Below are positions 40,101-64,000 of a stretch of 64,000 nucleotides of DNA, in pieces. The notes beneath the pieces are model-generated. The model was not told where the DNA came from, ran no database searches, and worked only from the letters and a program-made list of their open reading frames with translations. Positions within the stretch are counted from its first letter, which is position 1, and each line of letters begins with the position of its first letter. The DNA comes from Gossypium raimondii (lineage: Eukaryota; Streptophyta; Magnoliopsida; Malvales; Malvaceae). Made by a program: the position numbers and the translations under genes. The stretch lies in NCBI RefSeq assembly GCF_025698545.1, contig NC_068569.1, positions 19,468,001 to 19,532,000 on the forward strand. The letters run 5' to 3'.

Positions 40101-41336
40101 AGGGTAAACTATACTAATGGTCTCTCAATTATGCCTATGTTTTTGCTTTGGTCACCTAACTTTAAAATTTTCAATATAGGCATTAACATTTGAATTCGGA
40201 AAGTCTTTTTCTAATTGGTATAATAACACATCTAGTCTCCAATACTTATATATTCTATCAATTTGATCCTAATTCTAAATAATTTAATAAATTTAACCCT
40301 TCCCCATTTACAGGTTCTTTCAAATTGATCCTCAAACTTCCTAATCAAAGCTTTCAGCTTTTAAAACAGAGACATTCCACATCTATAAATTTGTAAAATC
40401 TCAAAAAAAAAAAACTTCTTCAACTAACAAGCCGTTTTCCAAGCCAATTCCCGATACTAATGAGTTTATCTTGAATCTTTATTTCCTTTTCTTTTTATTT
40501 TTTCATTAGTTTTCTTCCAAATATAATATTTTAGAACCCTTTCATTGATAAAATGTTGGCTAAAGAAAATGAAAACAAAACACTTTAGATTTACTCTTAT
40601 TGTTATCAGTATGATAATTCTTTCAAGGTACATAGAAAAAGTCTTCAAAGTTGGTCATTGAAATTAGAAATTAAATCTAGAGTTAAAAACATGGCTTTGA
40701 AAAATCCAATCGTTCAATCAATAATTATATAAGAAAAAAATATATAAACTGATTAAGAGATTATTATGTGTTATATTTATTTTAATTATTAAATCCACAA
40801 TAAGTAATATGTCTAATTTAGTGTCAAATCATTCACCAAGTTAATTAAAACTAAATTTATGTTAGTTAGAGTGAAAAAATATATTTATAAAAATATAAAA
40901 TTATTTATATAATTTTATTATATATAATTTTTTAATTTTTCTATTATTTTTAATAGTGTTTAGTTAATTTCTACCACTAACTTATTAAAAATAAACAAAA
41001 GGGTTATATATACTAAATTGAATAATTTCAACCATAAATAAAACAATTAATAGGTGTGAAATGCCTCTATTTTAAAAGTTGGAAGCTTTAGTTAGGAAGT
41101 TTGAGGATCAATTTGATAGAATTTATAAATGTGAAGGATTAAATTTATTGAATTATTTAGAATTAGAATCAAATTGACAGAATAAGTAAGTATTGAGGAC
41201 TAAATATGTTATTATACCAATTAGGAAAAGGCTTTTCGTTATCAATTTAACGGTGCCTAAATTAATTTTTTTTAAAGTTAAGTGATCAAAACATGAACGT
41301 AAGCATAATTAGGTGACTATTTATATAGTTTACCCT
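40101..41336. mobile_element. Non-autonomous element with long (about 300 bp) inverted repeats
   Basis: The ends read AGGGTAAACTATA and TATAGTTTACCCT. The inversion continues for nearly 300 bp each side at roughly 80% identity: 'AATTGGTATAATAACA', 'GATCCTCAAACTTCCTAA', 'TCAATTTGAT' and 'ATTCTAAATAAT' all occur inverted in the right arm. The interior is A/T-rich and noncoding. Long arms of this sort are typical of Mutator-like or foldback elements. The flanks do not show a clear 8-10 bp duplication, so the superfamily is left open. Confidence 0.75.
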
Positions 41337-41807: not shown

Positions 41808-43732
41808 TTTTTCTATTAAAAATTATTGTGAGTTATTTTTAACGGAAAATTTATAATTTAAATTAATTCCACTTTTTAATTAAATAAAATATATTTCTTA
41901 TAATAATTTAATTTGACATATTATTTTTAAAATTTTAAATTAAAATATCTTAAATTGAAGTAATTTAATATGTTTTAATTATTAAATATAATCAATTCAT
42001 GTATCGCATGGGACAAATGCTAGTTTTATCTGATTACATTAACATTCCATGTTGATTATTCCTTCTCTAACATTAAATATCATCAATTGATCATTAACAA
42101 AGTATAAATAATTAATAATAAATATTATGTAATTTAGTTATATTTAGTATCAATAATTTATAGTAATTTAGTTTACTATTTAGTAGTTCAAAATTATTAA
42201 GAAATTATATATAATTATATTTAAAAATATGTCCTAAAATTAAAATACCATTTTGTATAAAAGTGTTTAAAAAACATAAATCGAACATTTTTGGAAAGAT
42301 AATTATATTTGAATTTAATTATTTCTAATTACTTATAAGAATTTAGGAGGGTCAAATTATATTTAATTTAGTAAGACATACTAATTATTGCCGTAGTTAT
42401 TCAAATACGCCACAAATGTATAATTATAAGTATTTATGCATAAATCTGACTTTCTAAACATGATTAAATTTTATTATATGTATATATATTAAATATTAAA
42501 TAATTTCTTAAAGAAAGCATTAAATAAAGTTTGAACCGAAATGGATATATATGAGATTAAGAGAGTCTTGTGAGAGATCAAGACATGGAGTTTCAAATGA
42601 GATAGAATTTCAATCGAATAATTATTTTTAATAGAAATTATAGATAATTATTTGATATATTTTTAATAGAATTTATGGAGTTTTAAATAAGATGCATTTC
42701 AATATAAGTTATTTGGTACATCAATAATTTGAAAATAAATTATTTTTAAGAAAGTGAACACACAATTAATATTTCACAACTTAAAATTCAAATTGAGTTC
42801 CATTGCTAAAATAGAATTCATCAACTTGATTAGCTCAAAAATTTTTTACTCGATTTAACTATACTCACCCCTACAACTAGGTACCTTTCTAACAAAGCAC
42901 TGATTATATCATGTTGATTTGTCCTAAAAACTACAGCGAAAAACGATTTCTCTTGCAAACTGCGGTCTTGAGAATGTTTTTAGATGAGCACTGCATGTGA
43001 TGTTGATATTTTCTTTTATATATTATCAAAGCTCAAGGTTTTTATGGAGTTGTTAATCATATTTCTGAAGAATTTGATATTTTAATTTATTAAAACAAAG
43101 ATTGAGCAAAAGCTCTAAACTTAAATTACACTTAAAAGCAGAATGATTTCAAAAATTATTTTGGACAGTCAATTTTCATCGAATTAAACATACCTAAATG
43201 TTGTTTTGTTCAAATTTAATACTTCCCATTATACTTGTTTAATAGTCAGATAAAGCCAGGCCAACCCAAATAGGAGTTTTGCTTTAATTCGAGGAAAACA
43301 AAGGAAGCGCACAAAACAAAGTGAATTCAAATCATCGTTAAGCACAACCAGAAAAAATTTCAACCCCGGAAACCAGACTCAATACAGACAACAAAAACCA
43401 TAGAAAGCACAACACAGCAGCGGGCACGTAGGGCGGGCGTAGCTCACTGTATTTTATTTAAAGAACACGACCAAGTCCCACACTGAACTATTAGGCCACG
43501 GTAGAGAAAATTATTGTACTATAAATAGCACGTCTGCCATAAAAGGCACAATAAACGACTATACCAAGAGCTTCAGAATCACTCCTCTTCTGTCTCAGAC
43601 TCGGCATTCTGGAGCCACTCGATGAAGGGCTTGGAGTTCTTCCATATCTGAGAACTCTTATTACCACCGGCTACACCCTTCTGGTACCATTCCATGATGA
43701 ACTCTTCTTCCAAGATGTCATTGTCATATAGC
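41808..43732. repeat. Direct duplication 1, unit A (1.9 kb)
   Basis: Nearly identical to 43733-45651 in direct orientation and immediately adjacent. It covers 1.7 kb of A/T-rich intergenic sequence plus the 3' end of the eIF5 gene. It stops abruptly inside the eIF5 coding exon at 'CATATAGC', where it joins 'TTTTTCTATTAAA', the start of unit B. Differences from unit B are almost all single-base homopolymer length changes. Confidence 0.93.
43579..43732 (-). pseudogene. Truncated extra copy of the eIF5 C-terminus
   Basis: Encodes the last 50 residues of eIF5 ('NDILEEEFIMEWYQKG' to 'ESETEEE') and the stop, then breaks off. There is no upstream exon, start or promoter. It belongs to duplication 1 and may be an assembly artefact rather than a true pseudogene. 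Confidence 0.85.
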
Positions 43733-45651
43733 TTTTTCTATTAAAAATTATTGTGAGTTATTTTAACGGAAAATTTATAATTTAAATTAATTCCACTTTT
43801 TAATTAAATAAAATATATTTCTTATAATAATTTAATTTGACATATTATTTTAAAATTTTAAATTAAAATATCTTAAATTGAAGTAATTTAATATGTTTTA
43901 ATTATTAAATATAATCAATTCATGTATCGCATGGGACAAATGCTAGTTTTATCTGATTACATTAACATTCCATGTTGATTATTCCTTCTCTAACATTAAA
44001 TATCATCAATTGATCATTAACAAAGTATAAATAATTAATAATAAATATTATGTAATTTAGTTATATTTAGTATCAATAATTTATAGTAATTTAGTTTACT
44101 ATTTAGTAGTTCAAAATTATTAAGAAATTATATATAATTATATTTAAAAATATGTCCTAAAATTAAAATACCATTTTGTATAAAAGTGTTTAAAAAACAT
44201 AAATCGAACATTTTTGGAAAGATAATTATATTTGAATTTAATTATTTCTAATTACTTATAAGAATTTAGGAGGGTCAAATTATATTTAATTTAGTAAGAC
44301 ATACTAATTATTGCCGTAGTTATTCAAATACGCCACAAATGTATAATTATAAGTATTTATGCATAAATCTGACTTTCTAAACATGATTAAATTTTATTAT
44401 ATGTATATATATTAAATATTAAATAATTTCTTAAAGAAAGCATTAAATAAAGTTTGAACCGAAATGGATATATATGAGATTAAGAGAGTCTTGTGAGAGA
44501 TCAAGACATGGAGTTTCAAATGAGATAGAATTTAATCGAATAATTATTTTTAATAGAAATTATAGATAATTATTTGATATATTTTAATAGAATTTATGGA
44601 GTTTTAAATAAGATGCATTTCAATATAAGTTATTTGGTACATCAATAATTTGAAAATAAATTATTTTTAAGAAAGTGAACACACAATTAATATTTCACAA
44701 CTTAAAATTCAAATTGAGTTCCATTGCTAAAATAGAATTCATCAACTTGATTAGCTCAAAATTTTTACTCGATTTAACTATACTCACCCCTACAACTAGG
44801 TACCTTTCTAACAAAGCACTGATTATATCATGTTGATTTGTCCTAAAACTACAGCGAAAACGATTTCTCTTGCAAACTGCGGTCTTGAGAATGTTTTAGA
44901 TGAGCACTGCATGTGATGTTGATATTTTCTTTTATATATTATCAAAGCTCAAGGTTTTTATGGAGTTGTTAATCATATTTCTGAAGAATTTGATATTTTA
45001 ATTTATTAAAACAAAGATTGAGCAAAAAGCTCTAAACTTAAATTACACTTAAAAAGCAGAATGATTTCAAAAAATTATTTTGGACAGTCAATTTTCATCG
45101 AATTAAACATACCTAAATGTTGTTTTGTTCAAATTTAATACTTCCCATTATACTTGTTTAATAGTCAGATAAAGCCAGGCCAACCCAAATAGGAGTTTTG
45201 CTTTAATTCGAGGAAAACAAAGGAAGCGCACAAAACAAAGTGAATTCAAATCATCGTTAAGCACAACCAGAAAAAATTTCAACCCCGGAAACCAGACTCA
45301 ATACAGACAACAAAAACCATAGAAAGCACAACACAGCAGCGGGCACGTAGGGCGGGCGTAGCTCACTGTATTTTATTTAAAGAACACGACCAAGTCCCAC
45401 ACTGAACTATTAGGCCACGGTAGAGAAAATTATTGTACTATAAATAGCACGTCTGCCATAAAAGGCACAATAAACGACTATACCAAGAGCTTCAGAATCA
45501 CTCCTCTTCTGTCTCAGACTCGGCATTCTGGAGCCACTCGATGAAGGGCTTGGAGTTCTTCCATATCTGAGAACTCTTATTACCACCGGCTACACCCTTC
45601 TGGTACCATTCCATGATGAACTCTTCTTCCAAGATGTCATTGTCATATAGC
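43733..45651. repeat. Direct duplication 1, unit B (1.9 kb)
   Basis: The copy attached to the complete eIF5 gene. It matches unit A base for base apart from homopolymer lengths (for example runs of 3, 4 or 5 A or T) and a 1-base gap in 'AATTTCAATCG'. Confidence 0.93.
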
Positions 45652-46826
45652 ACTTTAAGAACCAAAGCCGCCTCCTTAGCTGCCTCGAGGTTTGCCTTGC
45701 CACAGAAAGACTCGATAGAATTGAGGAGCATCATCTGCCATCCCTCTTCTCTGGCTGCTGCTGCAAGGTAGTTCTTCTTTTTAGTTACTTCCTCCGCGAA
45801 CCCCTTCCCAACATCATGAAAGAGTACAGTAAAAAGGGCGTCCATGATTTCTTGGGACGTTCCAGAGAGTGAACCCAGGAAGGATTTAAGCTGAGCTGCA
45901 GATGACCCCGTATTGAGGTATTTCTTTATCTCATCAAGAAGTTTCTCATGGGCAGTGACACCATTCTCTAGTGCCTTAGCCTCACGCTCTGGAGACTTCT
46001 TCACTGACTTCTTTTCTTCATCAGTAGAAAGCATTACCATATCAGCTGTAACAGCACTCAACTGTTCTTGTATACGCTGTTGAGCAGCCTCCAGTGAAGT
46101 ATCTGTTTGCCACTGCACATTATCATCATCATCATCAGCCACCTCTTTGTTCTCATCAGCCTGGCTGTGAGTTGGGGAGTGATCCTCATCAGAATCTTTG
46201 CTTTTCTTCTTGGTTACTGCACCTTTGGGAGCAGTAGCCTTTGAAGTAGTAGTGGTAGAGGAACCTTTCTTTTTTGCCTCTTTTTTAACCTTCTTCAGCT
46301 CTTCATCAGCGGCCTCACCCTCCTTGAGTCTTTCCTTCTCAGCCCTCCTCATTGCCTTCTTGTCTTTTGAAGACTTCTTAGCCTCAGGTGGGTTTTTAAG
46401 AATGAAAGTTGTAAGCTTATCTCTCATGTCAACATCAGAAACAAACCCACACGCAGCACATTTCAGGGTAAGCATCTGTGTCTTAGTAATAACTATCTCA
46501 GTTTCAGGGTTCCCACAGCCATAGCACTGAACATACTTCTTAATGAAGTTCTCAAGAAGCCCTGCAAGCTTAGCAGTGTCATGGGCCCCATTGACAAGAG
46601 AAGTTCCAGTCTTCTCATCAAACTTGGATTGGGCTCCGAGTTCACAACCAAAATATTTTGTGGTGTAAGAAGCAGGTCTAGCCAAGGCCTTTGCAATTTC
46701 AACCATGTTAACCACGTTAGTCTTGATGCCATTTCCTCTCCCTTCAATCTTGGTTATCATTTTAGGCATCTTATACCTATAAAAGGCATCATCACTGTTC
46801 GAAGCACCAATATTTTGCAAAGCCAT
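45498..46826 (-). CDS. Eukaryotic translation initiation factor 5 (eIF5)
   Basis: Intronless coding region of 442 residues. I take the ATG at 46826 ('MALQNIGASNSDD') because it is the usual plant eIF5 start. eIF5 is the GTPase-activating protein for eIF2 in the 43S complex. The N-terminal eIF5/eIF2B domain carries the Arg finger region ('FYRYKMPKM', Arg17 equivalent to yeast Arg15) and a C4 zinc finger ('CYGCGNPE' ... 'KCAACG'). A Lys/Glu/Ser linker follows, then a C-terminal W2/HEAT domain with the acidic-aromatic boxes 'EEEFIMEWYQKG' and 'PFIEWLQNAESETEEE' that bind eIF2-beta and eIF1. Length is normal. An intron in the leader is likely (donor CAAAG|GTTTGA at 48003, acceptor CCCTCAG| just upstream of the ATG). 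Arabidopsis eIF5 At1g77840 is adjacent to ARF17, as here. Confidence 0.95.
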   Translation of the reverse strand: MALQNIGASNSDDAFYRYKMPKMITKIEGRGNGIKTNVVNMVEIAKALARPASYTTKYFGCELGAQSKFDEKTGTSLVNGAHDTAKLAGLLENFIKKYVQCYGCGNPETEIVITKTQMLTLKCAACGFVSDVDMRDKLTTFILKNPPEAKKSSKDKKAMRRAEKERLKEGEAADEELKKVKKEAKKKGSSTTTTSKATAPKGAVTKKKSKDSDEDHSPTHSQADENKEVADDDDDNVQWQTDTSLEAAQQRIQEQLSAVTADMVMLSTDEEKKSVKKSPEREAKALENGVTAHEKLLDEIKKYLNTGSSAAQLKSFLGSLSGTSQEIMDALFTVLFHDVGKGFAEEVTKKKNYLAAAAREEGWQMMLLNSIESFCGKANLEAAKEAALVLKVLYDNDILEEEFIMEWYQKGVAGGNKSSQIWKNSKPFIEWLQNAESETEEE

Positions 46827-48290
46827 CTTGATCAAACTGAGGGAGACTGTTAATCAGAAAGGAGATATCAGATACTGGTTATCAAAATCGTGGTGAGAAA
46901 TCTGTTACCAGGCTGCCTCCTTGCACTTGGAAGATGTTGCATAAAACGGAAACCCAAACTGTGTCTCTGATTGGCCTCAATATGCATGCAGCTAATTTCA
47001 GAATAGGAACTTCTATTCTTTTTTCTGGACGTGGGACAGTACTCTCCAAGCAATCCAATTGATGACAAAAAGAGAGAGGCCCGTTCAGACATAAAAGAAG
47101 ACTCACAAGTAACAGACTCCACTTTGGCAATCTGCAGCAGAGCAGATTAATCTGCCAACTTCCTGAAAGACAATGACGGAGTTGATTTAGGCAAAGGTCA
47201 GAGCATAGAATATCAATAACTGGCATAAAACCATAACATGAAAATTGCTACATCAGCGAAACTTGAACATTACTAGCAAAACCATAACACTACAATTTTC
47301 AAAATTGCATGTATAATTATGCATGAAGAAATACACATACTAAACATCGTCAACTTTTGTAATCCGATAAAGCATAGCATATTCCAGTATTATAACATCA
47401 AAACTTGGGATATCTATCAAAACCAAGATTAAATTATTTCTTCGTAAGTTTCTCTATACCAATAAAAGTTTAGATTGTAAAGAAAATAAAAATTATTTAT
47501 TTAGGACTGATTAAAGCAACGAAACTAGACAGATCAAAACTTAAAAGAAAAACCTAAACCCGCAGCTCTAAATCTCCTATAATACAAAAATATCTATTAG
47601 AAAACACAAAAATAAGGTAATTAAAACGAAAATTTAAGTACTACGATCTTGGTATAAAAACCTAAGCCTTCCGTCCAACGTTAAATAATGAAATATTAAG
47701 CAAATATATATATGAAAGAATATCTGCATTGCGATAATCTAAATCAGAAAAAAAAAAAGGAAATAGAAAACAAACCCTCTGGTTTCGATCTGATCATATA
47801 AAATAATACAAATACAAAGCTAAATTAAACAATAAGCTCTTACAACATAAACAGGTCAACAACGATCGAACAAAAGAAAAAAAATCTAGCTATCGGTCAA
47901 AAATGAGAGATACAATGAACGATACACAAACAAAAAGAAAAAAGCAAACAGAACAATAGAAAATGAAAATAATAATAAAATTGGAAACAAAAAGAATCAA
48001 ACCTTTGATGAGATGGGGAAAGTGATGGTAGGAGATAATTGGGAATCTGAGGCAGGAGAATTTGGAAGGTAAATAGATATTAGGATTTTTCTTGGGAGAA
48101 GAATTGAGAAGCTCTCAACTTTATACACGCCAACGAAGGAAATGTGAAACGCTAGGGCAAACTCAGCATCTTGAATTTTCTAGTATTGATTATTCTCGAA
48201 TAAACTTATTTTATTAAGGATTCTTTTGGGTTTTCTTAGGTAGATAATAAAACTTTTAATTACGAAATTAGGCCGATTATTTACGAGGAT
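46827..48290 (-). promoter_or_regulatory. eIF5 leader, leader intron and promoter
   Basis: The untranslated first exon is about 48003 to 48125, ending CATCAAAG|GTTTGA. The intron of about 1.16 kb contains short open frames (46868-47226) that I regard as noncoding. The sequence from 47293 onward is repeated downstream as duplication 2. Confidence 0.6.
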
Positions 48291-48995
48291 GATTTATCTT
48301 ATATAATAAAATTAGGTGTAGTTAATGTGTTAAGTGGCACCAACTTAAAAAGCACCCTGTCATTTGACAATCATTCCAGGTAAAAAAAATAAAACATTAT
48401 TTAAAGTTCGGTTTCATAATGCATTCAAAATAAACTCATATATAAATACAATACAACTCATATATACATGTCACATAACCGAGCTCAGAACATATAAATG
48501 ACTATCAAATTGAAAGCTGGATAATGAGAGCTCCGAAACGATTCGATCGACGCGTTCCGTAAAATGACTACAAGTGAAACAAAAAATGAATCAGAGCAAA
48601 CATTTCATAATCTTAGTAAGCTCATATGAAATTGTTTAACTTACCTTGACATTCAGATAATTTAAGAAATGTAAAACATATTGAAGCTAAGCATGAAAAT
48701 CCTTTGACATCCTGTTACTTTTATATGTACATTAACAAATATTCAGAGATTAGTATGTTACTTATCATGAACTTATAACATATCCGTATAGAACATAATA
48801 GTTTGTCATATAGCATATACCAATTCAATCACACTTCAACTGTAACATATATAATTCCATTCATGTCAATCTTTCAATCTTTCAATTATTTACAACCACA
48901 TAATGTCATTTCCATTTATGTCCTTCGCTTGAAAGCTACATAGAATTAAACTCAATTGCACGTAATTGATTTACTTACATACTAGATATATTTGG
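48291..48995. other. Noncoding repeat-like region upstream of eIF5
   Basis: A/T-rich, with no open frame. Together with the tandem repeat that follows and 52540-53786 it resembles interspersed repeat sequence, but I cannot assign a family. Confidence 0.4.
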
Positions 48996-49393
48996 GTTGC
49001 TAACACTAACTTCGGATCGGATTGCTAACACTAACTTGGTTCGATGCTACTAACATTAGCTTCGAGAATTCGCAACATATGTTGGATCTCAAGCCATCAA
49101 ATTAATTCTGATCACAACACCCATTTATTCATACAAACGAAATACTCATGCACTAACATTAGCTTCAAATCAAGGTTGCCAACACTAGCTCGGTTCGATG
49201 TTGCTAACACTAGCTTTAAAGAATCGAACATATGTTGGATGTCAAGCCATCGAATTAATTCTTGATCATAACACCCATTTATTCATACAGACTTATATAC
49301 TCGCCGCAAACATTAGCTTCGATCAATGTTGCTAACACTAGCTTCAAAGAATCCGCAACATATGCAGGATCTCAAGCCATCGAATGACTCTCG
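48996..49393. repeat. Tandem repeat, unit about 157 bp (copy in unit A)
   Basis: About 2.6 units, each containing 'TTGCTAACACTAGCTT', 'GCAACATATGTTGGAT', 'CTCAAGCCATCGAATTAATT' and 'ACACCCATTTATTCATACA'. 'GCTAACACTAGCTTC' itself recurs several times inside each unit, so the array is nested. Confidence 0.75.
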
Positions 49394-49401
49394 ATCATAA
49401 T

Positions 49402-49847
49402 TAAAGGTGCTCATGAGTCGGGTCAGTTGGCCTAAGCATGATATTAACATACTTTATGCTTGCCCAAGCCCGACTAACTCGAAATATGGGCCTAAAATTT
49501 TATCGAATCCCCATATTTGCAAAAAGACTAATCAAGCCCATTTTAGGTCCGCCCATATTATTTTTTAATTTTTAAAATTTTTATAGTATATTATTTTAAT
49601 ATTTAATAAAATTTTATATTTTTTATCTATTAAAAGTTTTATATAGTCATCTTAACATTATTTTAATGTTTATATTAAAGTAGTATTATATATTTAGTAT
49701 AAGTTTATTTTTAATGTGTTCTAAATTACATAATATATAAAATAACATAATATAATGTATTATAAACTTAAAACGGATCAGGTTAGGGGGATCGGCCTTG
49801 AATGTTCAAGCTCGAGCCGACCCATATTTTAAATGGGCCTAGTTTTT
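49402..49847. mobile_element. hAT-type MITE, third member, truncated by the duplication join
   Basis: Same insertion as the complete copy at 51973. Left end TAAAGGTGCTCATGAGTCGGG with ATCATAAT before it. The right end is missing because unit A stops inside the element. Several G and C runs in the termini are shorter than in the other copy, which looks like consensus error. Confidence 0.75.
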
Positions 49848-50562
49848 CAATTTTCAAAATTGCATGTATAATTATGCATGAAGAAATACACATACTAAAC
49901 ATCGTCAACTTTTGTAATCCGATAAAGCATAGCATATTCCAGTATTATAACATCAAAACTTGGGATATCTATCAAAACCAAGATTAAATTATTTCTTCGT
50001 AAGTTTCTCTATACCAATAAAAAGTTTAGATTGTAAAGAAAATAAAAATTATTTATTTAGGACTGATTAAAGCAACGAAACTAGACAGATCAAAACTTAA
50101 AAGAAAAACCTAAACCCGCAGCTCTAAATCTCCTATAATACAAAAAATATCTATTAGAAAACACAAAAATAAGGTAATTAAAACGAAAATTTAAGTACTA
50201 CGATCTTGGTATAAAAACCTAAGCCTTCCGTCCAACGTTAAATAATGAAATATTAAGCAAATATATATATGAAAGAATATCTGCATTGCGATAATCTAAA
50301 TCAGAAAAAAAAAAAGGAAATAGAAAACAAACCCTCTGGTTTCGATCTGATCATATAAAATAATACAAATACAAAGCTAAATTAAACAATAAGCTCTTAC
50401 AACATAAACAGGTCAACAACGATCGAACAAAAGAAAAAAAAATCTAGCTATCGGTCAAAAAATGAGAGATACAATGAACGATACACAAACAAAAAGAAAA
50501 AAAGCAAACAGAACAATAGAAAATGAAAATAATAATAAAATTGGAAACAAAAAGAATCAAAC

Positions 50563-50690
50563 CTTTGATGAGATGGGGAAAGTGATGGTAGGAGATAATT
50601 GGGAATCTGAGGCAGGAGAATTTGGAAGGTAAATAGATATTAGGGATTTTTCTTGGGGAGAAGAATTGAGAAGCTCTCAACTTTATACAC
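50563..50690 (-). promoter_or_regulatory. Extra copy of the eIF5 untranslated first exon
   Basis: Matches 48003-48125, including the donor CATCAAAG|GTTTGA. No second eIF5 coding exon follows it. It is part of duplication 2. Confidence 0.65.
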
Positions 50691-51552
50691 GCCAACGAAG
50701 GGAAATGTGAAACGCTAGGGCAAACTCAGCATCTTGAATTTTCTAGTATTGATTATTCTCGAATAAACTTATTTTATTAAGGATTCTTTTGGGTTTTTCT
50801 TAGGTAGATAATAAAAACTTTTAATTACGAAATTAGGCCGATTATTTACGAGGATGATTTATCTTATATAATAAAATTAGGTGTAGTTAATGTGTTAAGT
50901 GGCACCAACTTAAAAAGCACCCTGTCATTTGACAATCATTCCAGGTAAAAAAAATAAAACATTATTTAAAGTTCGGTTTCATAATGCATTCAAAATAAAC
51001 TCATATATAAATACAATACAACTCATATATACATGTCACATAACCGAGCTCAGAACATATAAATGACTATCAAATTGAAAGCTGGATAATGAGAGCTCAA
51101 ACGATTCGATCGACGCGTTCAGAAAATGACTACAAGTGAAACAAAAATGAATCGAGCAAACATTTCATAATCTTAGTAAGCTCATATGAAATTGTTTAAC
51201 TTACCTTGACATTCGAGATAATTTAAGAAATGTAAAACATATTGAAGCTAAGCATGAAAATCCTTTGACATCCTGTTACTTTTATATGTACATTAACAAA
51301 TATTCAGATTAGTATGTTACTTATCATGAACTTATAACATATCCAGTATAGAACATAATAGTTTGTCATATAGCATATACCAATTCAATCACACTTCAAC
51401 TGTAACATATATAATTCCATTCATGTCAATCTTTCAATCTTTCAATTATTTACAACCACATAATGTCATTTCCATTTATGTCCTTCGCTTGAAAGCTACA
51501 GTAAATTAAACTCAATTGCACGTAATTGATTTACTTACATATACAGATATAT

Positions 51553-51963
51553 TTGGGTTGCTAACACTAACTTCGGATCAGGATTGCTAACACTAACTTG
51601 GTTCGATGCTACTAACATTAGCTTCAGAGAATTCGCAACATATGTTGGATCTCAAGCCATCAAATTAATTCCTGATCACAACACCCATTTATTCATACAA
51701 ACTGAAATACTCATGCAGCTAACATTAGCTTCAAATCAAGGTTGCCAACACTAGCTCGGTTCGATGTTGCTAACACTAGCTTTAAAGAATCCGCAACATA
51801 TGTTGGATGTCAAGCCATCGAATTAATTCTTGATCATAACACCCATTTATTCATACAGACTTATATACTCGGGCCGCAAACATTAGCTTCAGATCAATGT
51901 TGCTAACACTAGCTTCAAAGAATCCGCAACATATGCAGGATCTCAAGCCATCGAATGACTCCT
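51553..51963. repeat. Tandem repeat, unit about 157 bp (copy in unit B)
   Basis: As at 48996-49393 but with fuller CAG and CCTG sites ('ATCAGGATTGC', 'TTCCTGATCACAAC', 'CATGCAGCTAACATT'), which suggests that this copy is nearer the true sequence here. Confidence 0.75.
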
Positions 51964-51972
51964 GATCATAAT

Positions 51973-52539
51973 TAAAGGTGCTCATGAGTCGGGTCAGGTT
52001 GGGCCTAAGCATGATATTAACATACTTTATGCTTGCCCAAGCCCGACCCAACCTGAAATATGGGCCTAAAATTTTATCGAAATCCGCCCATATTTGCAAA
52101 AGACTAATCCAAGCCCATTTTAGGTCCGCCCATATTATTTTTTAATTTTTTAAAAATTTTTATAGTATATTATTTTAATATTTAATAAAATTTTATATTT
52201 TTTTATCTATTAAAAGTTTTTATATAGTCATCTTAACATTATTTTAATGTTTATATTAAAGTAGTATTATATATTTAGTATAAGTTTATTTTTTAATGTG
52301 TTCTAAATTACATAATATATAAAAATAACATAATATAATGTATTATAAACTTAAAAACGGATCAGGTTGGGCCGGGATCGGGCCTTGAATGTTCAAGCTC
52401 GAGCCTGACCCATATTTTAAATGGGCCTAGTTTTTTTGCCTAAGCCAATTTTTTGGGTCTAATATTTTTGCACAAACTTGCCCAAATTTCGGGCGGGCCT
52501 TCGGGCCTGGATAGGTAACCTGACCCGTGAACAAGTCTA
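51973..52539. mobile_element. hAT-type MITE, third member, complete
   Basis: Left end TAAAGGTGCTCATGAGTCGG, right end (reverse) TAGACTTGTTCACGGGTCAG. The flanks ATCATAAT (51965-51972) and ATCACAAT (52540-52547) match at 7 of 8 bases. 567 bp with an A/T-rich interior. Termini resemble the members at 16013 and 38293 but are the most diverged. Confidence 0.82.
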
Positions 52540-53786
52540 ATCACAATGCACGTTTTCTTTTTTTGGAATTTAATAGCTTGTTGTTTGCATTTCAATTGTT
52601 TACTAAATTCACATGGCGTGTTGTCTAATTTGTATCATTTATATTTTTGTAACTGTATACACTTTTCATATTTCAAATAGCAATCCATATACCTTTTAAA
52701 AATTATAGCATAATCCTGTACATATCATTCATTCATATAATAAGTTCACATCCATTCTATTTTGCATATCTATACGTATTTAGCATGTGTTTCATATCTT
52801 TCAATTTAGTCCTTTAGATGCCAAAAACGTTATACTCAACAATCCAAACTAAAAAGCAATAAAATATAATACAAACATATACATATCATAAATTAATAAA
52901 GTAAATTTCATATGAACTTACCAGACAAAATCTGCAATGAGTGAAAAGTCGAAGACTAATCTGTAATTTTCCCTTTTACTCGATTTCCTATCGGTTGATC
53001 TGAATCTCAACCTATACGGTATTTCTTTTCAATTTATTAGTTCTAAATACCTTATAACATCGTATTTCATGTATATCACTTCTTACTTTCACTTTTCACA
53101 ATTACCCTAAAGTTTCGCATTTTATTCAATTTAGATCCTAAAACTGAAACTATAATATCTTTCACATTTAAACTCCATTTTTCAATCCTTTTTCAATTTC
53201 ATCATTGAATAATCCTAAAGAAACAATATTTACAATATATATATAACAAATTTGATGTAATTCTATTTTAGTCCTTATACTCAAAACTATAAATTTTCTT
53301 TTACAAACTAGTACCTATTTCATTTCGAACTTACAAACTAACATATTAACACCAAAAACTTCAAAAATTATCAATGAAAACTTTTACAAACTTTAACAGT
53401 TTTAAAAACGAATATACGGTTTAGCTAAATCGAGTTACAATGATCTAAAAACCATACAATTTATGAAAAAAATAGACTTTTAATACCCTACATGCAATGG
53501 CCGATTCTTGGAAGAATTTTGAAGCTTTTTCTCCCCTCTTCAATGGTTTATATTCTGTGGAGGAAGATGAGAACGAAAATTCTCTTTCCATCCATTTATG
53601 TTTAAGTTTTATTTTACAATTCATTAATTTTAATTAAAAGAAAATTAATAAAACCAAACCAAATTCATGCACTAACAGTCTAAGCTCACTTATTATGGTC
53701 CAAATACTATTTAAATCCATTCAATAATACCATTTGACCCATTTAGCTATTAAAATTTAATAGTGATTAAACTTTTACCTCTTTTA
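52540..53786. other. Noncoding, repeat-like, no gene seen
   Basis: 1.25 kb of A/T-rich sequence with no usable open frame. The style resembles interspersed repeat sequence common in large plant genomes. I cannot assign a family or boundaries. Confidence 0.4.
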
Positions 53787-53858
53787 CAAATTAAACCCTA
53801 GAAGCCAAGAGTGCTATCCCTGGCATCCTAGCGAAAACAGTGGCTGCTGCGGCTTGGG

Positions 53859-55075
53859 ATGAAGGAGAGTGGTGGCAACGATGGGTTTGGGGGAGACGAG
53901 ATCTCCTTATTAGCAGAGGAACTCATTCAACTATTGGTCAAAAGCTCGATGGTAGAACCAAAAGGTAAAACATCTCTGATTTGTTCTGTTTGGACAAAGA
54001 AATCTTATAATCAGGATAGTTTTAAAGCACAGATGAAAAGTATATGGAAAACAAAGAAAAAATTTGAGATTCAATCAGCAGGGCAAAACCTCTTTCTAAT
54101 AATGTTTGAATTAGAGGACCACTTAGAAGCTGTTCTGGAAGGCCAACCATGGTTGTTTAGGAAACATTTAATTCTTTTTGATCGTTTGATAAAACCAATG
54201 GAAAGAGATCAAATTAGACTTGTTTCATCTCCGTTCTGGATTAAAATTGGGCCATGTTTACCAGAGTTTGATAAAAAAGATCTGTTGCATGCTATAGGAG
54301 TTACTTTTGGAGGAGTACTCAGATCTGAAGTTCTAGGTGACTTCTGTCGCCTTAGAATAAAATTAAATGTGCAGAAACCCCTTCGTAAGGGTATATTTGT
54401 TTCAACTGGTAAAGGTCATAAATGTTGGATCCCATTCAAGTATGAGAAGTTACCAACGTTTTGCTTCGGGTGTGGCAGAGTGGGACATGGTCTCCATGAA
54501 TGTACAGAAATAATTCCTGAAAAAAAAATAGAATTAGAGAGAGCCCACCTTTCTCTTTGGTATTAAAAGCAGAATCAAATTTGGTTGGTAGGGAGAGTCT
54601 AAAATTGAATGCTCTATCAAAAAAATTACAATCACAATGTTCATATATAGGAAATACTGAAGAAAACCAGAGGGCGCACTTATATAATGAAAAGAGAAGC
54701 AATACGATGCAAGGAGCACAAGCAGACTCTTTGGAAAAAATACTAGGAAAAGAGATAGAGATTCAAAAGGAAGGAGAAATTAATGAAAAAGAAACCGAGA
54801 ACAGTAAAGCAGATGGAGATTTAATGAGATCGGCCAGGAAAGCCACTTGGAGAATATTAGAACCAGTAGAAGTGAAGAGACATTATGAGGAAAAAAGTAA
54901 ATTGCAGAAAAGGAAATTGGTAGAGATCATAGACGATGATTATGAAGACACAACTAAAAGGATGAAATATGATAGCCAAACTTTACTTAATGAGGATGAA
55001 ATCAGTTTGTTGATAGAAGTTCCCAAACAGAATATATCGGCGGCTGCCAAAAGGCAAGCCGACCGGACGCAATGA
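53859..55075 (+). pseudogene. LINE ORF1 (DUF4283, CCHC zinc knuckle)
   Basis: Open from 53859 to 54566 (235 residues), with the DUF4283 region 'FELEDHLEAVLEGQPWLFRK' and the knuckle 'CFGCGRVGHGLHEC'. One frameshift near 54545 moves the reading frame, after which a Lys/Glu-rich tail runs to a TGA at 55073-55075. ORF1 normally coats the LINE RNA. The stop overlaps the ORF2 start as ATGA. Confidence 0.85.
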
Positions 55076-58000
55076 AAATCATATGCTGGAATGTCCGTGG
55101 ATTGGAGAGTCCGCGGGCAGTGAGAAAGCTTCGGTTTTTACTGAAGCAAAATAATCCCCAGCTGGTCTTCTTTATGGAGACTAAAGTTAGTGATAAGCGT
55201 ATGGAGGACATTAGGAGGAGGTGTGGCTTTATGAATGGGTTGGAGATAGGAGCAACAGGTACGCGTGGAGGGATTTGCCTAACATGGCGAAAGGAGGTTT
55301 AGGTAAAACTGAAAACTCTCTCAACGAGTCATATGGATGTGCTGATTAAAGAAGAAGGTGTTAATGAAGAATGGAGATTCACAGGGTTTTATGGATCACC
55401 CTATTCACAGAATAAAACTGCCTCATGGGATCTATTAAGACTGTTGGGACAGGAACAAAACTACCCCTGGCTAGTTAGTGGAGACTTTAATGAAATAACC
55501 TACTCATTTGAAAAAAAGGGAGGTCTATCGAGGGAGGAAAAAAGAATGGCAGAGTTTCGCAAGGTCTTAAATGAATGCCAACTTATGGATGTAGGATACT
55601 CTGGAACATGGTATACATGGGAAAGAGGGAATTTACTGAAAACGAATATTAGAGAAAGAATTGACAGGGGTGTTACGAATGAAAAATGGTTGGAGCTCTT
55701 CCCAGAAGGCAATATACACCATTTGACGTCTACACTCTCTGATCATTGTCCCCTTTTAATAAGCAAAACTAACGAAAGTAGATTCAAAGGAATTTCAAGC
55801 TTTAAATTTGAAGCATGGTGGACCACAGAAGAATCAATTGAGGAGGAAATTAAGAAGTCATGGGAGTCTTCAAATGGATCAATTCTTGAAAAGATGGAAA
55901 CATTACAAATCAGTCTATCAAAATGGGCAAAATCAATAAAGAAGGAACGGAAGGGATTGACGGCTAAACTTTCAAAGGAGCTTGAAGCTTTAATGGAGAA
56001 AGAACGAGATGATGATATACTGGCAAAAATAATTGATACGAGAATTCATTTGAATATGGAGATTGATAAAGAGGAAAGGTATTGGGAACAGAGAGCACGG
56101 GCTAATTGGCTTAAGTTAGGGGATAAGAATACGACATTCTTTCATAAATATGCCTCAATGCGAAAAAGAATTAATACAATAAGCAGGCTGGAAATAGATG
56201 ATGGAATTGGAATTCACGATGAATCAGAAATAAATAAGACTGCAACGAGCTATTTTCAGAGCCTATTTTCGACTCACGGTGTAGGGGATCTATCCCATCT
56301 TTTAACAGGTATCAATAACAGTATATCTTCGGAAATCAACATAGCTCTTTTGACAAAATATACGTCAGAAGAAATTTTTACAGCAGTCAAAAGAATGGGA
56401 TCTACTAAAACACCAGGTTTCGATGGTTTTCCGGCATTATTCTTTCAAAAATATTGGCATATAGTAGGTAAAGATATTGGTGAATTTTGTTTGGGAGTTT
56501 TAAATAATGGAAAGGATTTTGAAGGTTTAAACCTAACGGAGATCATACTTATCCCGAAGACGTCCAAACCTACAAATCTTGGTAATTTCAGACCTATCAG
56601 CTTATGCACAGTTATATACAAAATTATAGCCAAGACAATTGCAAATCGTCTTCAAGAGTTTATTGGCAGATGTATTGATAATGCTCAAAGTGCATTCGTC
56701 CCAGGGAGACTAATATCAGATAATGTATTGATAGCCTATGAACTTCTACATACACTTCGCCAAAAAAGAACAGGGAAAAAAGGATTCATGGCAATAAAGT
56801 TGAACATGAGTAAAGCTTACGACAGAGTCGAATGGGCATTCTTAAAGGAAATTATGATCCGAATGGGCTTTGCAGAGGAATGGGTGTCATTAATTATGAG
56901 GTGTATTTCTACAGTCTCTTATGTAGTAACTACTAATGGGAGAAGAGGCAGTGTTTTTCAACCTACCAGAGGACTTCGACAAGGTGACCCACTTAGCCCT
57001 TTTCTTTTCCTTATTTGTAGCGAAGGACTCTCGGCCTTACTCAGGATTGCGATAAGGGAGGGTCTGATTAAAGGGGTAAAAGCTAGCAGAAGAGGCCCGA
57101 CAATTTCAAACCTACTTTTTGCGGATGACTGCATTTTGTTTGGAGAAGCGATAAAGAGTAAAACTGGGATTTTAAAAGATATATTGAAAGAATATGAGAG
57201 TTGTTCCGGTCAATGTGTAAATTTTAATAAGTCCACGATCTTTTCAGCACTAATACAGAGGAAGAGGACAAAGAGAGTATCTCAGCTGAAATGGGAATAA
57301 GGCAGTCGACTAATGTAGAGAAATATTTAGGACTACCAAATATGATAGGAAGGAAGAAGAATGAGTCTTTTCAGAATATAAAGGATAGAATCAAACAGAG
57401 GATTGAGAACTGGAGTACACGTTTTCTATCTCAATGGGGAAAAGAGGTGTTCATAAAGTCAGTACTTCAATCAATTCCAAGTTACGCTATGACATGTTTT
57501 CTGCTACCGAAATCATTTTGTGGGGAGCTTGAAAATCTGTTTGCTAGATTCGGGTGGCAAAAAGGTAAAGGCAGAAAAGGCATTCACTGGTGCAAATGGA
57601 ATGATATGTGTAGTCCAAAAGAGGAGGGAGGCATGGGCTTTCGGAATATGGCGCAATTTAACATTTCTCTACTTGCTAAACAAGGATGGAGGATCATTAA
57701 TAATCAGAATGCTCTTGTTACGTAAGTTTTTAAAGCCAAATATTTCCCAGATGATCATTTTTTAAATTCCCGATTAAAAAACTCTTGTTCTTATGCATAG
57801 AAAAGTATCTAGGCAGCTAAAGCCTTATTGATTAAAGGTTAATGTTGGAGGGTGGGTACGGGTATCAGTATATCCATTAACGATGCTTGGATTCCAAATT
57901 CAGTTAATTTTAAACTATCAACAGAGTCAAATACTATGAGCGTGTCAAAAGTAAATGAGTTAATTGACAGCAATGAAAAAAGATGGAAAAAAGAGCTGAT

Positions 58001-59150
58001 TATGAGTACCTTCACAGAAGAAGACGCAGCACAAATACTCCGAATTCCTCTGAAACGAATACCTCATGAAGATTTTCTTATTTGAGGAGGCGAACCGTCG
58101 GGTGATTTCACAGTACAAAGTGCTTATAAACTATTACAGAGAACGGATGAAAATCCTAGAGCTTATGCTTTACAAACCATCTATAAGAAATTTTATAAAC
58201 AACTCTGGAGTCTAAATCTACCATCTAAAGTAAAGGTTACTATATGGAGACTGTCATGGAACTATCTGCCTACAAAGGTAAATTTACAACACAGGAAACT
58301 AGCTGCCAATACAAGTTGTCCCAGATGTGGTCAAAGAGCTGAAACAATGAATCATGTCTTTCGAGAATGTCCTGTCACAGTTGATGTATGGAGAGCATTA
58401 TCATTTTAGAATATTTTGACGAATCAATGTGAGGACTTTGTACAGTGGCTTACCTGGACGATAGAGTAGCTCAACCCTCGTCAAGGTCAGTTTTTCTACT
58501 GTGCACTTTGGGCTATATGGGGAGATAGGAACAAAAAAGTACACGAAGGAAAAGTTAGCAATGGAAATGATACTGCAAGTTTCATAAATAGCTACATCAA
58601 GGAGTTAACTGACTTTGAAAACAAAGATCTGAAAAGAAGAAAAGAAATCAGAAAATGGACGTACCCACAGAGGGAGTTTGTCAAGATCAACTTTGACGGT
58701 GCATATAAAGAAACCCAGAATCGGTTAGCTTCAGGTATTGTGGTCAGAGATTCGGAAGGAAACGTCCTTTTATCCTACTAAAAAATTCACGATGATGTAT
58801 CGTCTCCTTTTGCTGCTGAAGCCATAGCATGTTGGAACGCAGTCAAAGTAGGTATTGACAAAGGATGGCAGTCACTCATTTTTGAAGGTGATTCCCTCGC
58901 AATAATTAAGAAATGCAGCACAAAAGGTCAAGATCGATTAATGGTAGGAACATACATCTATGATATTCAGGAAAAAAATTTTGCCCTAAATAATATCAGA
59001 TTTCAACATACATCAAGATCTGCGAACAATCTGGCACATATTCTAGCAACAGCAACGCTAAGAAGTGGAGAGGAAATTTACCTGGAGATGGGCGTCCCCA
59101 AATACGCTGAAGATCAAGCAAGGCAAGATAGGATGAGTGAGCCAAACTAG
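55072..59150 (+). pseudogene. LINE ORF2 (endonuclease, reverse transcriptase, RNase H)
   Basis: Endonuclease landmarks 'CWNVRGL', 'MET', 'SGDFNEI' and 'SDHCPLL' are present. The reverse transcriptase shows 'NFRPISLCTVIYKIIAK', 'SAFVPGRLISDNV', 'GLRQGDPLSPFLF' and 'FADDC'. A Cys/His region 'CPRCGQRAETMNHVFREC' follows, then a plant RVT_3-type RNase H ('INFDGAYKE', 'AAEAIACWNA', 'IFEGDSLAII', 'SANNLAHILA'). The first catalytic Asp of reverse transcriptase motif A is Asn here (AAC at 56803-56805, in 'KLNMSKAYDRVEW'). There is a stop at 55300, a frameshift near 57246, and stops at 57723, 57798, 57810, 57840, 58083, 58407, 58467 and 58779. Several replace Trp TGG. Confidence 0.92.
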
Positions 59151-59519
59151 AAGTCTCAGAAGACGAAGAAGGTAAGAGAGAAAGTTTTCAGACCACTAAG
59201 AAAATGAAAAGATACACAAGGATGGTTTTGAAAGTGAAATCGTCAAAAGGAAATGAATTGACAGAAAGCAAATATGACAGATTTCAGTAATTCTAATTGG
59301 GCAAAGACGCGGCGCATTTAGTGCTGGTTCTAGAATTTTCCACTTTAATATCAAGATATTTTACTTGAGCATGGCCATCTGTTTGGGCCGACTTCTTAGC
59401 TTAGGTTTTAATTCTGAATTTATGGTTTTGGGCCGTTTTCTTTGTTCTTAGGTTTTTTATAGATTGTTGTATTTTCATTTATTCTATTAATAAAGCCAAA
59501 TCTGGAAAGTTTCAAAAAA

Positions 59520-59767
59520 TCATGGTACGAGTCACGACATGACATGCGGCGTAAATGGCGAGGGCGTGAGAGCCAGCCCAAATCAGGACAGAAAAACTCC
59601 AAACATTTAATGCGGCAATTCCTTTGTTGCCTAACTGTTCTCATTTTCTGTTATTTCGTCGCTCCCGCTCCTGCGCGCCTAATGTTTCATCCAAAATTAC
59701 CACAACAATTCCAATACTCTTTGTTCACAATCTCCACCTCCGCCTCGCTCCTCCTCTTCTCTCGCCC
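59520..59767 (+). promoter_or_regulatory. Leader and promoter of the galactosyltransferase gene
   Basis: A 250 bp GC-richer stretch between the LINE tail and the ATG at 59768. From 59617 onward it is repeated at 62030. If the LINE boundary is right, the LINE lies directly upstream of the promoter. Confidence 0.55.
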
Positions 59768-62029
59768 ATGAAGCAACGTAGTTCGACGAAAATCTCCCTT
59801 AAATGGATCCCATTTGTCTGCATCTCCTTCTTCGTCCTCGGAACTGTCTTCTCTAACAGGTCTCCCTTTCTATTTATTCTTTCTTTTATTAATTTATGAA
59901 ATGGTGTCAATGCCTTTCCTTTTCCTTTTCTCTTTTTTGGGTTCGGGTCTTTAATTGTTGGGGTGGAGTTTTTTTTTTTTTTTGATAGATATTGGATTTT
60001 GGTTACAGGCTATGGATTCCAACTATATTCAACGATTGTGACACTAAGAAAGTATGTTCCTATTATGTTCACAATGACAGTTTTTTTAACTTTAGTTTTT
60101 GGTTTTCTTCAGCTTTTTCTTTTAAAAACAAAGCTTTATTGTGTTTTTGCAGAAGCCTGCAACAGATAATTTTGAAAAGGGCGAAGTTTTGAAAACCCAC
60201 GAAGCAATTGAGTGAGTGCGAAACTGGGTTCTTATTCTTTTAGTTGAAGTTCATGTTTTTGCTTTGGGAAGTCTTCACTCTTCACTATTAATTTCTTTGC
60301 AATTTTTTATTTTTGGTGAGGGCCTAACTAGATCTCTAGACAAGTCATTTGCAACGCTCCAGATTAAGTTAGCTCCCCCAGGTAGTTCTCAGAAAATGAA
60401 GAACTCGGATGCCACCGGTGCTGTCTCGACCTTGGCTGGTATCGACTCGCCGAGGAAGAAAGCATTCATGGTCATTGGGATTAACACTGCTTTTAGTAGT
60501 AGGAGACGGCGTGATTCCATCAGAGAAACTTGGATGCCACAAGGTATTTTATAGAGCATTTGATTCGTTTCTTCTTTGTATTTCATTATCCGAAATGAAT
60601 TCTTATGTTTATGTTTGAGCAGGGGAAAAGCTTGTTCGGTTGGAGCGTGAAAAGGGGATTATTATCCGTTTCATAATCGGCCATAGGTAAAATCGTTTTT
60701 CAGTTCCTTTTTCAAGTGCATGCATAAGGAGATCAAATCTTGAGCGTGAATGGTAATGTTTAAAGTGTGATGAATATGGGAGAAATGTACTTGCTTCAGT
60801 ATGAAATTCAAACTGACTTCCGTTTATATCTGCATTTATTAACTCCAGTGCAACATCCGACAGCATTTTAGATAGAGCCATTGATTCAGAGGATGCTCAA
60901 CATAAGGACTTCCTTAGACTGGTTAGACAAGTGTTTCCGTGATAATGTTGAAAACTCTTACAGACATATTATCCCCATTTCATACCTTTAAACTGTTACC
61001 AACCTTCTAATACAGGAGCATGTTGAAGGATATCATGAATTATCTGCAAAACAAAACTTATATTTGTACTGCCGTTGCAAATTGGGATGCCGAGTTCTAC
61101 GTCAAGGTGGACGATGATGTCCATGTTAATCTTGGTGGGTTTGCCATCTCTAATGTTAGAAACATATAGTAGAACTTAACAAAAGCTTTTGATTGTTTCA
61201 TTAGTGAATTTGTTTATGCATATTTTTTCTGATAGGTAAGCTAGCCGACTTCTTGGCCGTCACCGCTCCAAGCCCATGGCCTATATAGGGTGCATGAAAC
61301 CGGACCGGTTCTTTCTAAAAAGTAATTAGTTCTGGTATTTTTTGTCAATGATAATACTAATCTCCAATTTGCTTTGCTCTGTCCTGCAAAGTTTGTTATA
61401 TACCTTTTCTTGAATTCCTCTATGTCCTTAAGGTCTGTCAAGTACCACGAACCGGAGTACTGGAAATTTGGAGAAGAGGGGAATAAGTACTTTCGACATG
61501 CAACTGGTCAGATATATGCAATTTCAAAGGATCTCGCAAGCTACATTGCCGCAAACCAGTGAGATCATTGATTTTTATATGAAAGTCACTTTTTTTTTGG
61601 CTTTGCCTAATTGAGGATCTTGGTTTCATCTTTATTATGTGTGTGCATTTGGCAGTGTCACCTTCATCCTGCTCCTTCCCTTGGTTTTCGCTTTTTTACC
61701 AGTTAGATCATGTAGCAGTTTCTTTTTACATAAAGCATGTCATCAAAACATTGAAGATCGGTTATTACCCTGCATAAATTCTGTTATATTTTATGTCGTT
61801 GAGCTAAATGGCTGTCTCAGACTGTTGAATTTGCATATTGTTTTGATGTAGTGACTTTGCACCTTTGATCCTCTGCACTGATAATATTCTGCCTTAAAAA
61901 GACAGGCATGGTTGACAACATTCAGAGTGATTCTGACTGAATTGCAGGCATATATTGCACAAGTATGCTAACGAAGATGTGTCCCTCGGTTCATGGTTTA
62001 TCGGCCTTGAGGTTCAGCACTTGAATATT
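59617..62029. repeat. Direct duplication 3, unit A (2.4 kb)
   Basis: Starts 151 bp before the galactosyltransferase ATG and ends inside its tenth exon, where 'CAGCACTTGAATATT' joins 'AATTCCTTTGTTGCC', the start of unit B. Nearly identical to 62030-64000 apart from homopolymer length changes and a few C/T differences. Confidence 0.93.
59768..62029 (+). CDS. Beta-1,3-galactosyltransferase (GT31), copy A, lacks last exon(s)
   Basis: Exons 59768-59859, 60009-60051, 60153-60211, 60332-60543, 60623-60686, 60849-60921, 61016-61134, 61236-61321, 61433-61558 and 61948 to the join. A type II Golgi membrane enzyme: short basic tail, anchor '[16 protein letters not shown]', DUF4094-like stem ('[19 protein letters not shown]'), then the GT31 domain with '[20 protein letters not shown]', the DXD-type metal site '[12 protein letters not shown]' and '[15 protein letters not shown]'. 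The closest relatives are At1g77810/At1g22015, which add galactose to glycoproteins such as arabinogalactan proteins. Exons 7 and 8 are each two bases short (homopolymer or single-base losses) relative to copy B, so this copy does not read through as given. The C-terminus is missing. Confidence 0.88.
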
Positions 62030-64000
62030 AATTCCTTTGTTGCCTAACTGTTCTCATTTTCTGTTATTTCGTCGCTCCTGCTCCTGCGCGCCTAATGTTT
62101 CATCCAAAATTACCACAACAATTCCAATACTCTTTGTTCACAATCTCCACCTCCGCCTCGCTCCTCCTCTTCTCTCGCCCATGAAGCAACGTAGTTCGAC
62201 GAAAATCTCCCTTAAATGGATCCCATTTGTCTGCATCTCCTTCTTCGTCCTCGGAACTGTCTTCTCTAACAGGTCTCCCTTTCTATTTATTCTTTCTTTT
62301 ATTAATTTATGAAATGGTGTCAATGCCTTTCCTTTTCCTTTTTCTTTTTTTTGGGTTCGGGTCTTTAATTGTTGGGGTGGAGTTTTTTTTTTTTTTTGAT
62401 AGATATTGGATTTTGGTTACAGGCTATGGATTCCAACTATATTCAACGATTGTGACACTAAGAAAGTATGTTCCTATTATGTTCACAATGACAGTTTTTT
62501 TAACTTTAGTTTTTGGTTTTCTTCAGCTTTTTCTTTTAAAAACAAAGCTTTATTGTGTTTTTGCAGAAGCCTGCAACAGATAATTTTGAAAAGGGCGAAG
62601 TTTTGAAAACCCACGAAGCAATTGAGTGAGTGCGAAACTGGGTTCTTATTCTTTTAGTTGAAGTTCATGTTTTTGCTTTGGGAAGTCTTCACTCTTCACT
62701 ATTAATTTCTTTGCAATTTTTATTTTGGTGAGGGCCTAACTAGATCTCTAGACAAGTCATTTGCAACGCTCCAGATTAAGTTAGCTCCCCAGGTAGTTCT
62801 CAGAAAATGAAGAACTCGGATGCCACCGGTGCTGTCTCGACCTTGGCTGGTATCGACTCGCCGAGGAAGAAAGCATTCATGGTCATTGGGATTAACACTG
62901 CTTTTAGTAGTAGGAGACGGCGTGATTCCATCAGAGAAACTTGGATGCCACAAGGTATTTTATAGAGCATTTGATTCGTTTCTTCTTTGTATTTCATTAT
63001 CCGAAATGAATTCTTATGTTTATGTTTGAGCAGGGAAAAGCTTGTTCGGTTGGAGCGTGAAAAGGGATTATTATCCGTTTCATAATCGGCCATAGGTAAA
63101 ATCGTTTTTCAGTTCCTTTTTCAAGTGCATGCATAAGGAGATCAAATCTTGAGCGTGAATGGTAATGTTTAAAGTGTGATGAATATGGGAGAAATGTACT
63201 TGCTTCAGTATGAAATTCAAACTGACTTCCGTTTATATCTGCATTTATTAACTCCAGTGCAACATCCGACAGCATTTTAGATAGAGCCATTGATTCAGAG
63301 GATGCTCAACATAAGGACTTCCTTAGACTGGTTAGACAAGTGTTTCCGTGATAATGTTGAAAACTCTTACAGACATATTATCCCCATTTCATACCTTTAA
63401 ACTGTTACCAACCTTCTAATACAGGAGCATGTTGAAGGATATCATGAATTATCTGCAAAAACAAAAACTTATATTTGTACTGCCGTTGCAAATTGGGATG
63501 CCGAGTTCTACGTCAAGGTGGACGATGATGTCCATGTTAATCTTGGTGGGTTTGCCATCTCTAATGTTAGAAACATATAGTAGAACTTAACAAAAGCTTT
63601 TGATTGTTTCATTAGTGAATTTGTTTATGCATATTTTTTTCTGATAGGTAAGCTAGCCGCACTTCTTGGCCGTCACCGTTCCAAGCCCATGGCCTATATA
63701 GGGTGCATGAAATCCGGACCGGTTCTTTCTAAAAAGTAATTAGTTCTGGTATTTTTTTGTCAATGATAATACTAATCTCCAATTTGCTTTGCTCTGTCCT
63801 GCAAAGTTTGTTATATACCTTTTCTTGAATTCCTCTATGTCCTTAAGGTCTGTCAAGTACCACGAACCGGAGTACTGGAAATTTGGAGAAGAGGGGAATA
63901 AGTACTTTCGACATGCAACTGGTCAGATATATGCAATTTCAAAGGATCTCGCAAGCTACATTGCCGCAAACCAGTGAGATCATTGATTTTTATATGAAAG
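62030..64000. repeat. Direct duplication 3, unit B (cut by window edge)
   Basis: Second copy of leader, exons 1-9 and introns. It continues past the window. Differences from unit A are single-base run-length changes plus two C/T changes ('GCTCCCGCTCC' versus 'GCTCCTGCTCC', 'CACCGCTCC' versus 'CACCGTTCC'). Confidence 0.93.
62181..64000 (+). CDS. Beta-1,3-galactosyltransferase (GT31), copy B, partial at window edge
   Basis: Exons 62181-62272, 62423-62465, 62567-62625, 62744-62954, 63034-63095, 63258-63330, 63425-63545, 63648-63735 and 63848-63973. The remaining exons lie beyond the window. Exons 7 and 8 have correct lengths here and give '[19 protein letters not shown]' and '[19 protein letters not shown]'. 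Exon 4 is one base short (a C run) and exon 5 two bases short (G runs) relative to copy A. The errors in the two copies are thus complementary, as expected of two noisy consensus versions of one gene. Confidence 0.88.

Follow-up and report, generated by a model that had tools for sequence, protein, structure and literature searches.

At the right end of the window, the whole 64-kb stretch of DNA that was analysed, a galactosyltransferase-like gene lies twice in a row. Judged by its sequence, this doubling, like two others upstream of it, is with high confidence a "homotype" false duplication, made by overlapping, error-prone long-read pieces that were left unmerged and in which polishing left run-length errors. 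The record contains the duplications; the plant very probably lacks them and very likely carries one such gene at this locus. Two observations carry the case for a false duplication: the exact abutment of all three pairs and the crowding of errors at the joins. Against it stand the joins without N and the residual errors, which are equally expected in a real young duplication.

Three abutting pairs

The whole window was compared with itself for matches of 60 bp or more with E up to 1e-8. Only three self-matches exceeded 90 % identity, and all three were exactly abutting direct pairs:

41808 to 45651, no strand: duplication 1, two abutting units (41808-43732 and 43733-45651) with 99.4 % identity
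47293 to 52435, no strand: duplication 2, two abutting units (47293-49847 and 49848-52435) with 97.6 % identity
59617 to 62029, plus strand: unit A of duplication 3, a DUF4094 + Galactosyl_T gene with its 5' flank and exons 1-10
62030 to 64000, plus strand: unit B of duplication 3, the same gene starting 151 bp ahead of its ATG and reaching slightly beyond exon 9
62029 to 62030, no strand: join of units A and B, without N or spacer

Duplications 1 and 2 lie about 7 to 18 kb upstream of the A/B pair. All three joins fall in ~22 kb, and the other 42 kb hold no such pair. Three near-identical pairs with zero spacer in so short a distance argue for a common technical cause; the argument is one of likelihood. 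N was absent from the window, joins included. Microhomology was found at neither of the two joins that are visible on both sides, which is compatible with a false as well as with a real duplication; the A/B join has zero shared bases on its left side, and its right side extends beyond the reach of the window. In duplication 1, the final 154 bases of eIF5 coding sequence are doubled identically, and the complete frame continues from unit B there.

The galactosyltransferase gene and its two copies

The original prediction had reported one near-identical gene in two successive units, the first ending in exon 10 and the second restarting 151 bp before the ATG. This layout was recovered: unit A is cut within exon 10 at 62029, unit B starts at 62030 with its ATG at 62181, and the window end cuts unit B. 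The coding exons are:

59768 to 62029, plus strand: unit A, exons 59768-59859, 60009-60051, 60153-60211, 60332-60543, 60623-60686, 60849-60921, 61016-61134, 61236-61321, 61433-61558 and 61948-62029
62181 to 63973, plus strand: unit B, exons 62181-62272, 62423-62465, 62567-62625, 62744-62954, 63034-63095, 63258-63330, 63425-63545, 63648-63735 and 63848-63973

Exon 10 (61948-62029) is the last piece of A and stays open in frame as far as the join; it would continue past 62029, with its true end outside the window.

Alignment of A and B over 1,976 columns gave 1,961 matches, with 3 substitutions and 12 indels of one base each (BLAST's own alignment has 5 mismatches and 12 gap bases; identity was 99.1 % in the self-comparison), and 10 of the 12 indels were in runs of four or more. 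All introns of both copies are bounded by GT...AG, in line with the intact splice sites that had been stated. No difference was present in exons 1, 2, 3, 6 and 9. Comparison of exon lengths confined the damage to exons 7 and 8 in A, each 2 bases shorter than in B, and to exons 4 and 5 in B, shorter than in A by 1 and 2 bases, respectively. The frame is broken in these exons by four indels in A and three in B, which agrees with the predicted changes of one or two bases each. The broken copy was the shorter copy for all seven exonic indels. Five of these were located in runs of four or more, in line with the claim of damage mostly in runs, and the remaining two, both in exon 8, outside such runs.

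Neither copy on its own is open throughout. The combination of exons 1-6 of A, 7-9 of B and 10 of A, unedited, yielded 320 codons without a stop, and the reverse mix a broken frame. The combined protein matched DUF4094 (PF13334) over positions 1-85 of 90 and Galactosyl_T (PF01762) over positions 1-193 of 195, with a weak match to Fringe; both Pfam domains share one open frame only if exons of A and B are combined. PF13334 together with PF01762 is a feature shared with the plant beta-1,3-galactosyltransferase genes, which we take to be the family of this gene. Compared to them it shows nothing unusual, with its 3' end outside the window, and on its domain content it is an ordinary DUF4094/Galactosyl_T gene for a putative enzyme. 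The original prediction had also emphasized that the errors are complementary. They do occur at different places in the two copies, but this was over-weighted: three and four exonic errors are expected by chance to differ in place, and as proof of an artefact their positions are weak.

Nature and position of the differences

Real paralogues or alleles are expected to differ mainly by substitutions. The units of duplication 1 differed by 0 substitutions and 11 indels, with 1,916 matches. Pooled with duplication 3, 3 substitutions and 23 indels were counted, and 20 of the 23 indels were located in runs of four or more, which comprise about 12 % of the bases. Duplication 2 had 7 substitutions and 46 indels (14 mismatches and 49 gap bases in the BLAST count), only 16 of the 46 in such runs. 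Its unit B was disrupted at 14 of 37 CAG/CTG and 6 of 21 CCG/CGG triplets, compared to 150 of 2,586 for all triplets and 1 of 28 for GAC/GTC; viewed from unit A, 4 of 27 CAG/CTG were disrupted. The Fisher p of 5e-9 for the CAG/CTG excess in unit B is overstated as triplets overlap. At six places A reads CG against CAG or CTG in B, the reverse at one. This enrichment may reflect nanopore miscalling of methylated plant CHG cytosines; a literature search on this point turned up no paper.

For calibration, neighbouring genes were considered. The window has a G+C content of 33.7 % and a plant-like gene content. Among ten open frames scanned, six matched PPR, SHMT (two), GrpE, B3 + auxin-response-factor and eIF5, one was a reverse transcriptase and three were without match. 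The reverse transcriptase is LINE-like (55303-57725), with an open frame of 665 codons containing RVT_1 that continues in another frame. Calibration of frame errors used SHMT and eIF5, the genes for PPR, ARF and GrpE being followed only partway. Both coding regions are unduplicated apart from the last 154 bases of eIF5. No frame error was detected across the four coding stretches of SHMT (the last two recognised by eye), nor in eIF5, whose frame is open over 451 codons between stops. Seven exonic indels in 2 x 874 bases of the doubled gene against none in about 3 kb of SHMT and eIF5 are an excess (Fisher p = 0.0009, with the 3 kb rounded). The same excess is expected in a real young duplication, thus it supports uncorrected errors rather than a false duplication alone. 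According to PMC8812927, short-read polishing is unreliable in repeats, and with most of the tools tested more than half of the remaining errors lay in them.

Overlapping ends of two pieces would be expected to become worse toward the right end in A and toward the left end in B. The shorter copy was taken as erroneous, since it was the broken one in all seven exonic cases; outside exons this is an assumption extended from these cases. In duplication 1, all eight places with B short were left of all three places with A short (exact p = 0.006). Duplication 3 had the same polarity (AUC 0.86, exact p = 0.024); the A-short place at 59926, far to the left, was the one exception to the trend. In duplication 2 the rank test was not significant (AUC 0.65, p = 0.096), and polarity as a general rule was therefore dropped; 28 of 38 A-short places were in the right half of A (p = 0.0025) and 10 in the left half, and only 2 of 8 B-short places in the left half of B. 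In duplications 1 and 2, the complete units (duplication 3, with its B cut, was excluded), counting presumed errors up to 300 bp away gave 11 at the join against 2 at the outer edges (p = 0.011); the counts were 8 v 1 for 200 bp, 15 v 3 for 400 bp and 17 v 3 for 500 bp, mostly contributed by unit A of duplication 2. Were a join present in the plant, reads should cross it, and a correction equal to that at the outer edges would be expected.

Origin of the duplications

Several explanations were weighed. The window could contain three real, extremely young tandem duplications of 1.9-2.6 kb in ~22 kb, with the run-length differences as residual sequencing errors. Two of these would have formed without microhomology, and in one a truncated galactosyltransferase would precede the other copy. 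A real tandem duplication and an unmerged overlap look alike in layout (u-A-A-v); the joins of a real duplication would be without N as observed, and it is compatible with the non-significant polarity of duplication 2. Residual errors in repeats after short-read polishing would likewise be expected (PMC8812927). The run-length damage on which the original prediction relied was seen, but by the same source it cannot on its own tell a false duplication from a true recent one. However, about 22 kb would have to accommodate three separate events, each almost free of substitutions and without any spacer, and the crowding of errors at the joins (11 vs 2) is unexpected if reads had crossed them. We regard real duplications as very unlikely.

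Even less probable is a heterotype false duplication, in which one sequence retains both alleles of a heterozygous plant as its two units. As a matter of general knowledge, allelic differences should be mainly substitutions, but substitutions and indels numbered 0 vs 11, 7 vs 46 and 3 vs 12 in duplications 1, 2 and 3, with substitutions prevailing in none of them. Duplication 2, as the most divergent pair (97.6 %), comes closest to this explanation, and in the vertebrate assemblies of PMC9516828 false duplications arose mainly as heterotypes.

A homotype false duplication accounts best for the observations. The original prediction of one gene under two overlapping, unpolished ends was strengthened by two more abutting pairs and by differences dominated by indels, and was further backed by the errors on the join sides and by SHMT and eIF5 without frame errors. 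Homotype false duplications (PMC9516828) share with the present pairs near-identical copies on one sequence and differences resembling sequencing errors. Differences of this kind were found in duplications 1 and 3, duplication 2 being less clean. The false duplications of that study are most often separated by a gap, whereas here no N lies at the joins; the accumulation of presumed errors around the joins in duplications 1 and 2 is only an indirect sign of missing read support.

The sequence would have been tiled from a piece ending at 43732, pieces from 43733 to 49847 and from 49848 to 62029, and a piece starting at 62030. The inner pieces, of 6.1 and 12.2 kb, would be about as long as single reads or small contigs. 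Overlaps of 1.9-2.6 kb may have gone unrecognised and the pieces been placed end to end without N, so that each overlap appears twice. Polishing would then have repaired the unique interiors of the pieces; at the doubled ends, reads would map ambiguously or to the better copy, and run-length errors would persist at different places in each copy. We infer this tiling, the failed merging and the history of polishing from the layout of the units.

The value of the finding is a warning on the assembly; the biology is ordinary. If the record is used unchanged, annotation will tend to yield two broken galactosyltransferase genes in place of what is very likely a single intact one, and an extra eIF5 fragment. 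With three such joins in a 64-kb window the fault may recur elsewhere in the assembly, and counts of tandem duplicates and pseudogenes derived from it need checking.

A transposon as cause of the doubling was set aside: no match between the three duplications was listed (E 1e-8, 60 bp or more), and inspection of the joins by eye revealed no sign of terminal repeats. The self-comparison also displayed stretches of 71-75 % similarity between duplication 1 and 10306-10622. Each unit of duplication 2 contains a tandem repeat of 154-158 bp in about two copies (49022-49343 and 51560-51914). Just upstream of duplication 1, very AT-rich sequence contains an inverted repeat pair (40101-40391 and 41045-41336), ~290 bp long and 81 % alike.
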